From the NCBI RefSeq assembly GCF_027532945.1, contig NZ_JAPZTZ010000021.1:1-64000 (forward strand): a DNA stretch of 64,000 nucleotides, read 5' to 3'. Shown here piece by piece: positions 7,408 through 10,618 of the stretch. Origin of the DNA: Phreatobacter sp. (GTDB taxonomy: Bacteria > Pseudomonadota > Alphaproteobacteria > Rhizobiales > Phreatobacteraceae). Positions within the stretch are counted from its first letter, which is position 1. Every line of letters starts with the position of its first letter. The translations under genes were made by a program, and so were the position numbers. The notes under the pieces are model-generated. The model saw only the letters and a program-made list of their open reading frames with translations, ran no database searches and was not told the origin of the DNA.

Positions 7408-8208
7408 ATGAGCCTTGAGGTGACCATCCTCGGATGCGGCTCTTCGGGCGGCGTGCCGCGGGCCGGTCAGGGTTGGGGGGCCTGCGATCCCGCCGAGCCC
7501 CGTAACCGCCGCCGCCGCTGCGCCATCCTGGTCGAGCAGACCGGTCCGGGCGGTGTCACCACGGTCCTGATCGACACGGGCCCGGACTTGCGCGAGCAAC
7601 TGATCGGCGCCGGCGTCACGCGGCTTGATGCGGTGCTCTACACGCACGATCACGCCGACCACACCCACGGTATCGACGACCTTCGGCCGATCGTGCTCGC
7701 CATGCGCCGGCGCATCGCCGTCCATGCCGACGACGTCACCGCCGCGACGCTGCGCCAGCGCTTCGGCTATTGCTTCGCATCGCCGCCCGGCAGCGACTAT
7801 CCGCCGATTGTCGACATGCATGAATTCGCGCCTGACACGCCCGTGGTGATCGACGGCCCCGGCGGGGCCATCGCCTTCGGGCCGATCACGGTCGAGCATG
7901 GGGCCGGCTATCGCGCCTTCGGATTTCGCTTCAAGGACGCTGTCTATTGTCCTGATGTCAGTATGATTCCAGCGATGTCACGGGCAGCCTTCATCGACGC
8001 GCGGATGATCATCCTCGACGCGCTGCGCTACACGCGCCACCCGACGCATCTGAGCGTCGACGAAGCTTTGGCCTATCTCGCGGATTTCGCGCCGACGCGC
8101 GCCGTCCTGACCAACCTGCATACCGACGTGGATTACCGCGTGCTGCAAAGTCGCTTGCCGGATCACATTGTGCCGGCCTTCGACGGCATGCGGATCATCC
8201 TCGACTGA
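7408..8208 (+). CDS. MBL-fold metallohydrolase, PhnP-like phosphodiesterase family
   Basis: A 266-residue metallo-beta-lactamase-fold protein. The N-terminal GCGSSGGVPR segment (9-18) and the metal motif HDHADH within THDHADHTHGID (79-90) match the PhnP/RNase Z-like branch. Later conserved positions include Asp in YCPDVS and His in TNLHTDVDY. PhnP hydrolyses cyclic phosphodiesters in phosphonate catabolism, but this copy sits beside metG-tatD with no phosphonate genes, so a general phosphodiesterase role is more cautious. It begins 8 bases after tatD and probably shares its transcript. Confidence 0.9.
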   Translation: MSLEVTILGCGSSGGVPRAGQGWGACDPAEPRNRRRRCAILVEQTGPGGVTTVLIDTGPDLREQLIGAGVTRLDAVLYTHDHADHTHGIDDLRPIVLAMRRRIAVHADDVTAATLRQRFGYCFASPPGSDYPPIVDMHEFAPDTPVVIDGPGGAIAFGPITVEHGAGYRAFGFRFKDAVYCPDVSMIPAMSRAAFIDARMIILDALRYTRHPTHLSVDEALAYLADFAPTRAVLTNLHTDVDYRVLQSRLPDHIVPAFDGMRIILD

Positions 8209-8379: not shown

Positions 8380-9246
8380 ATGAGCCAGCCCTCCCTCGAT
8401 CCCACCGCCGTTACGCCCTCCGGGGACATCCAGCGCCTGCTGGAGATCATGGCCTGGCTCCGCACGCCCGGCCGCGGCTGTCCCTAGGACCTCGAGCAGG
8501 ACTTTACGACGATCGCGCCGTTCACCATCGAGGAAGCCTATGAGGTGGCCGATGCCATCGAGCGTGGCGATCTCGCGGACCTGAAGGATGAGCTGGGCGA
8601 CCTCCTGCTTCAGGTCGTCTTCCATGCCCGGATGGCCGAGGAGCAAGGCGTCTTTGCTTTTCCCGACGTCGTCCGTGCCATCACCGAGAAGCTGATCCGT
8701 CGACACCCCCATGTCTTCGGCGGCGACCGCGACATGAGCCCCGAGGCCGTCAAGGGCCTCTGGGACAGCATCAAGGCCGAGGAGAAGCGGGCGAAGGCCG
8801 AGGAGCGCCAGCGGCTTGGCCTACCGGTTCCGGCCGCAGCCGGTGTCCTGGCGGGGGTTCCGACCGCCCTGCCCGCATTGACCCGCGCGCTCAAGCTCCA
8901 GGACAAGGCCGGCAAGGTCGGTTTCGACTGGAACGATGTCGATGCTGTCCTGGCCAAGATCGTCGAGGAAGCCCAAGAGATCGTCGAAGCGCGTCGCGCC
9001 GGTGCTCCGCAGGCGGCCGTGGCCCACGAGGTTGGCGATCTGCTCTTCGCCGCCGTCAATCTCGCCCGCCATCTTGGCGTCGATCCCGAGGGCGCCCTGC
9101 GCGGCACCAACGCCAAGTTCGAGCGTCGCTTCGGAATGATCGAGGCCTCGCTGGCCGCCGAAGGCAGAACACCTGCCGAGGCCTCCCTCGACGAGATGGA
9201 TGCCCTGTGGAACGAGGCGAAGCGCCGGGAGCACGAGGCCGGCTGA
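8380..9246 (+). pseudogene. mazG: mazG nucleoside triphosphate pyrophosphohydrolase, interrupted by an in-frame amber codon
   Basis: MazG hydrolyses (d)NTPs to NMP and pyrophosphate. The full frame from ATG 8380 has 288 codons, the expected length, but codon 36 is TAG (8485-8487). The residues around it read RGCP-stop-DLEQDF, exactly where MazG proteins carry the conserved CPWD motif, so a single TGG-to-TAG change explains it. Everything downstream remains open and well conserved: EEAYE (51-55), DELGDLLLQ, and the second domain with KIVEEAQEIVE and HEVGDLLF. Restarting at GTG 8545 would give a product lacking the CPWD and EExxE parts of the N-terminal domain. The alternatives are a sequencing error, amber suppression, or a truncated protein retaining the C-terminal domain. 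It is convergent with hflX. Confidence 0.8.
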
Positions 9247-9250
9247 GCCT

Positions 9251-10618
9251 TCAGGAGGCCTGAGCTAGCCGCCGTTCCAGCTGTTCGCGCTTGGCCGGTG
9301 CAATGCGCAGCGTGACGCGGGTCTCGCCGCTGTCGAGCGGTTCGCGCGCCTCCACCTCGGCATTCTCGTGGATCCAATGGAGCGTCGCGCCATCGGCGGC
9401 AGCGACCGTCACGGTCATGCGGTCATGGGCGGCACGCAGCTTGTCCTCCACCGCCGACAGGAGCTCGGGGATCCCCTCCCCGGTGATCGCCGAGACGAAA
9501 TGTGGTCGCGCCTCCGGTTCGTGGCGCTCGGCCCGGTTGCGCGCGGCCTCGCGCGTCTCGGCGTCGAGCAGATCCACCTTGTTCCAGACCTCCAGGATGG
9601 TGCGCGTCGCCTGGTCGATGCCGAGGTCGCCAAGGATGGCCTTCACATCCGCGGCCTGGGCCTCCGTGTCGCCATGGCTGACGTCGCGCACATGCAGGAT
9701 CACATCGGCCTCGATGACCTCCTCCAGGGTCGCCCTGAAGGCGGCGACGAGCATGGTCGGCAGGTCGGAGATGAAGCCGACCGTATCCGAGAGGATCGCC
9801 TTGGTGCCGCGCGGCAGGCGCATCTGGCGCAGCGTCGGATCGAGGGTCGCGAAGAGCAGGTCCTGCGCCAGCACGCCGCCGGTGGTCAGCGCGTTGAACA
9901 GCGTGGACTTGCCGGCATTGGTGTAGCCGACCAGCGCGATGATCGGATAAGGCACGCGGCGGCGGCTTTGGCGATGCAGGCGGCGCGTGCGCGTCACCTG
10001 TTCGAGCTCGCGCTCGATCCGGGTGATGCGCTCCTGGATCATCCGGCGGTCGGCCTCGATCTGCGTCTCGCCAGGACCGCCGAGGAAGCCGAAACCGCCG
10101 CGCTGGCGCTCAAGGTGGGTCCAGGAGCGGACGAGCCGGCTCTTCTGGTAGCTCAGATGGGCGAGTTCGACCTGCAGCCCGCCCTCTTTGGTGCGGGCCC
10201 GCCGGCCGAAGATCTCGAGGATCAGGCCCGTGCGGTCCACGACCTTGGCCTTCCACGCCTTTTCGAGGTTGCGCTGCTGCACGGGTGACAGCGCGGCGTC
10301 GACAAAGACGAGCCCGGCATCGTGGACCGTGACAAGGCCGGCGAGTTCCTCGACCTTGCCCTTGCCGATGAGGGTCGCAGGGCGCGGCTCGTTGAGGGTG
10401 ACGATCACCGCCTCGGTGACCTCGAGGTCGATTGCAGCGGCGAGGCCCACCGCCTCGTCGCGCTTCGCCGTGGCCGAGCGCGAGGGCGCATCTGCCCCCT
10501 CACCTCGCCGCGACGAGCGGACGGGCACAACGACGAGGACTCGCGTCGGTGTGCCGCGCGGTTCCTCGCCATCGGCGAGAGTGGTGCTGACGATGTCGGG
10601 TCTGCGAATGTCCAACAA
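9251..10618 (-). CDS. hflX: GTPase HflX
   Basis: A ribosome-associated GTPase of the Obg-HflX superfamily that splits stalled or heat-damaged 70S ribosomes in studied bacteria. It has 455 residues. The glycine-rich HflX N-domain contains [12 protein letters not shown] (81-92), followed by [15 protein letters not shown] (174-188). The G domain shows G1 GYTNAGKST (231-239), G3 DTVGF (278-282) and G4 NKVD (346-349). It lies immediately downstream of hfq (17 bases), the same hfq-hflX order as in enterobacteria, and closes the ntr-hfq transcription unit. It converges on mazG with only 4 bases between the stop codons. Confidence 0.96.

Follow-up and report, generated by a model that had tools for sequence, protein, structure and literature searches.

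An in-frame amber codon at the conserved tryptophan of mazG in a Phreatobacter draft genome

MazG (NF007113, TIGR00444) is a housecleaning enzyme, a nucleoside triphosphate pyrophosphohydrolase with two tandem MazG domains, represented by E. coli MazG (PDB 3cra and 3crc). PMC10014863 names Glu172, Glu193 and Asp196, in the C-terminal domain of the E. coli protein, as residues that bind Mg. According to PMC3855555, two mycobacteria remain viable as mazG-null strains, and mycobacterial mazG loss is linked to a rise in C:G-to-T:A mutations during oxidative stress and stationary phase. The mazG gene of Phreatobacter sp. shares the tandem domain arrangement, keeps the C-terminal EExxE and ExxD motifs of the E. 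coli protein, and exceeds the equivalog cut-off past an internal stop. However, the frame that spans the N- to the C-terminal domain is broken at codon 36 by a TAG, and as sequenced the gene is not an intact member of the family.

The interrupted mazG frame

The gene lies in a 4.13-Mb draft genome (35 contigs, 97.05% complete), within the window, a stretch of 64,000 nucleotides. Its neighbors are metG, a tatD-like gene, an MBL-fold hydrolase, and a convergent hflX. The upstream neighbor, encoding the MBL-fold metallohydrolase (7408-8208, + strand), and the downstream hflX (9251-10618, - strand) serve as rate controls. The mazG reading frame occupies 8380-9246 on the + strand (MSQPSL...RGCP*DLEQDF...HEAG*) and has 289 codons if the TAG inside it and the terminal TGA are counted. 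In the consensus sequence the TAG falls at 8485-8487, in place of the Trp of the CPWD motif, and the frame is otherwise open, as the initial annotation of this DNA had described it.

Read through the TAG, the frame contains two PF03819 stretches: an N-terminal MazG domain at 8497-8718 and a C-terminal MazG domain at 8941-9129 with the motifs EEAQE and HEVGD (both + strand). The part past the stop (8488-9243) scores 307.8 bits with the NF007113 MazG equivalog, above the cut-off of 208, and residues 1-248 of the query align to E. coli MazG 3cra. Counterparts of the three C-terminal Mg ligands are present in this alignment, in which, by our count, the chain numbers run two ahead of the residue numbering in PMC10014863. 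A single MazG locus was detected in the genome.

The start at 8380 follows the initial annotation and is uncertain, with no Shine-Dalgarno pairing. Every in-frame start 5' of the stop (8302, 8323, 8338, 8344, 8380, and 8449) reads into the TAG, and no in-frame start codon occurs between 8488 and 8544. The first possible restart is the GTG at 8545-8547 (+ strand), codon 56, which directly follows EEAYE. A product begun there would be 233 residues long and would lack the first EExxE motif, as had been noted, together with the beginning of the N-terminal domain; the C-terminal domain lies entirely past this GTG.

Codon conservation and selection past the stop

The codon aligned to the TAG is TGG in all 109 other homologous loci that were read, including 11/11 Phreatobacter congeners, and a stop at this position is absent from every one of them. 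The initial annotation, too, had derived the TAG from TGG. The 109 loci combine 29 from a first search with 80 from a second, the best among 490 confirmed relatives. The first search found a match in 38 relatives, nine of which yielded no locus and went unread, and the combined set contains at least three duplicate pairs from the same contigs (L005/L035, L006/L033, and L008/L034). A mazG protein search of 41 genomes gave no match in two (G014 and G019), one of which is only 1.4 Mb, and mazG may be absent from the genomes of some relatives. Separately, one genome of the same order has a mazG match with a TAA inside, 243 codons past its Trp codon (L025, G017:C24:42051-42785), and another has a mazG match split in two (G027:C263:9220-10035).

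The TAG reads as a G-to-A change at the middle base of the Trp codon, which creates a CTAG. This tetranucleotide reaches about one fifth of its expected frequency, with 198 occurrences against about 950-960 on both strands of a 504-kb sample of the genome. It is likewise scarce in 80 kb of the closest genome, G006 (26 vs 150), and the window holds 11 such sites on the + strand, for example at 8484 and 9265. In 8/11 congeners the codon falls within CCTGG. At such Dcm-type sites, familiar from E. coli genetics, deamination of 5-methylcytosine would turn CCTGG into CCTAG. PF00145 has no match in this genome, though 10/14 control genomes match, and a methylation hotspot was dropped because no C5-methylase match was found.

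Past the stop, mazG carries the signature of purifying selection. Its own-branch dN/dS is 0.04-0.09 against 0.05-0.17 on the branch of the sister, G006, and the own value is the lower in six of seven outgroup comparisons. Unique amino-acid changes number seven on the own branch and six on the sister branch, with six more that are ambiguous. The low ratio arises partly because dS is higher on the own branch (0.32-0.44 vs 0.16-0.27); own-branch dN exceeds that of the sister in 5/7 comparisons, and with the outgroup L009 the own-branch ratio is higher too (0.09 vs 0.05). The neighboring genes have similar own-branch ratios, namely 0.08-0.12 for the MBL-fold gene with four outgroups and 0.03-0.05 for hflX with six.

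Assuming about 560 nonsynonymous sites and that the stop released mazG from selection, a Poisson bound confines relaxed selection to at most the last 1-14% of the branch across 18 settings, and to 3-11% in 15 of them. The residue just before the C-terminal EVGD (9025-9027), beside the Mg-binding pair, is His, compared with Asp in 9/11 congeners and Gly in 2/11. The ratios past the stop bear out the earlier statement that the downstream sequence has not decayed, with the dN values and this His as reservations.

Explanations for the stop codon

Comparison with 80 kb of the sister, to which own bases 1-77,320 align at about 89-90% identity, indicates how isolated the stop is. Sister ORFs with a dN/dS of at least 0.35, a dS of at most 0.1, or a large overlap with a longer ORF were removed, which left 70. 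Four of these meet a stop in the own sequence, one of them a TAG, and in our judgement mazG is the sole one cut inside its body. Two others were dismissed because a later own start (3921 and 54691) follows stops at codons 12 and 25, and the last was dismissed as antisense to the own ORF 68213-69004. In the reverse comparison, 10/76 own ORFs hit a stop in the DNA of the sister, and half of these ten lie past own base 77,320, where the sister DNA compared ends. The reverse list includes an ORF antisense to mazG, and mazG itself is not in it.

A codon-usage scan covered 504 kb, or 12% of the genome, made up of the own contig (C15) as far as base 104,000 plus 20 chosen stretches on nine of the larger contigs. 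It requires at least 25 open codons 5' and 60 codons 3' of a stop, and frameshifts fall outside its scope. A first run gave 16 candidate stops and missed the mazG TAG itself; a looser run, set to catch mazG, gave 21 stops flanked by coding-like sequence. Six of the 21 were examined, namely all TAGs and all stops with no start among the ten codons that follow. In the remaining 15 (14 TGA and one TAA) a start does follow within ten codons, and these were presumed to mark neighboring genes.

No second convincing in-gene stop was found among the six. The stop at C15:67098 lies four codons 5' of an own 216-aa ORF, one lies between an adaptor and an RND permease (L178), another between a FixJ-like regulator and CobS (L167), and past a fourth MgtC starts (L165). 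At a fifth (L181) an MFS protein terminates with nothing known beyond, the weakest dismissal of the set. The scan flagged three TAGs, and the two besides that of mazG precede a gene start, so that recurrent in-frame TAG within conserved genes was not seen. Within the 504-kb sample there is no sign of widespread TAG recoding or of an assembly full of such errors.

These observations suggest that the TAG is, on balance, probably a single-base nonsense allele of the only detected mazG, and that it arose very recently in the strain or its population. Ribosomes would then stop after 35 codons, which would preclude full-length MazG; the most that a restart at GTG 8545 could yield is a 233-residue protein with a single complete catalytic site, the C-terminal one. 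The cell can probably do without MazG well enough to let such an allele survive for some time.

The main rival to a recent mutation is a miscall of base 8486 in the draft assembly, with mazG intact in the organism itself, an explanation that we regard as possible and that deserves serious weight. Such an error predicts the same pattern as a recent mutation: a single base altered where every locus read has the same codon, and no clear decay past it. The draft state of the assembly fits an error as well. Both tRNA-Trp and secE are absent from it, although they adjoin in 6/6 congeners tested, and their absence is most likely an assembly gap. Missing 16S, considered as a sign of a binned genome, was set aside: RF00177 has no match here, but the control matched in only 9/14 genomes, and the result is no evidence. 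The creation of a CTAG, rare in this genome, is a weak hint in the same direction. Against a miscall stand the sister ORFs, where by our reading no other stop falls within a gene body, and the six scanned stops, none of which is convincing. The otherwise clean look of the contig tips the balance modestly towards a recent mutation and away from a consensus error. Of the options listed in the initial annotation, very recent inactivation and a sequencing or assembly error both stand, as the pattern is compatible with each.

Remodeling of the gene by translation from GTG 8545, with the whole C-terminal domain usefully active in a 233-residue product, is unlikely. Of the two domains of E. coli MazG, only the C-terminal one is reported to be active in the structure paper of Lee from 2008, and the counterparts of the C-terminal Mg ligands lie past the GTG. 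The own-branch dN/dS of the part from this codon is low (0.03-0.09), but recency of the stop also accounts for that. Anti-Shine-Dalgarno pairing at the GTG, at -5.9 kcal/mol, is slightly stronger than is typical of own genes (median -5.3 over 56), but 20% of random positions match or beat it, and the GAGG lies 11 bases 5' of the GTG as counted by eye. The His before the C-terminal EVGD also speaks against a working product. So do results in PMC10014863, where all truncated forms of the M. tuberculosis enzyme that were assayed, 85-325 included, were significantly less active. The restart proposed in the initial annotation may occur, but with an unremarkable ribosome-binding signal, and its product would retain more than had been stated, namely the C-terminal Mg ligands. 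Since those catalytic residues would be retained, loss of MazG, with the effects on the nucleotide pool and the stringent response that had been attached to it, is a consequence that we infer.

Amber suppression or recoding, in which an amino acid is inserted at the TAG to give full-length MazG, is extremely unlikely: no tRNA with a CTA (CUA) anticodon is among those found in the assembly, RF1 is encoded, and TAG ends other genes. The assembly contains 39 tRNAs (RF00005), none with that anticodon according to ARAGORN, and a looser search added two matches of 18.7 and 14.4 bits, well under the cut-off of 29. RF1 scores above its cut-off, in a frame free of internal stops; a second, weaker match that falls below the cut-off is presumably RF2. 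TAG terminates 20/387 coding-like ORFs in the 504 kb and 4/56 sister-matched own genes. The open and conserved frame past the TAG would suit suppression. So would the gap in the tRNA set: tRNA-Trp, like some other tRNAs, is missing from the assembly, its anticodon cannot be read, and a mutated tRNA there would escape notice. The suppression option of the initial annotation is unsupported by this assembly, which lacks tRNA-Trp and secE. That the TAG is both real and functional, whether by conditional read-through with a tRNA for UAG encoded in the tRNA-Trp region that the assembly lacks or through a 233-residue MazG from GTG 8545 that uses the C-terminal site alone, is very unlikely.

Comparison with recoding and young pseudogenes

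Whether it proves to be a real mutation or a draft error, the event is ordinary and isolated, and the data make no open question newly testable. If real, it would add to the recent losses of housecleaning enzymes, here in a bacterium of a water-associated genus. A practical caution follows for users of this draft, in which mazG is interrupted and the cause is unproven.

The locus resembles cases of stop-codon reassignment or amber suppression in having an in-frame TAG with a conserved frame beyond it. It differs from them in that no CUA tRNA was found, TAG terminates genes, and the sample holds no second convincing in-gene TAG. An established young pseudogene differs in another respect, as the TAG described here is known from one draft consensus. 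In other respects the locus resembles a recent nonsense allele or young pseudogene: the inactivating change is absent from relatives and no older decay is seen, with the reservations on dN and His given above, and there is one stop, at an otherwise invariant site, with little or no further decay, in one genome.
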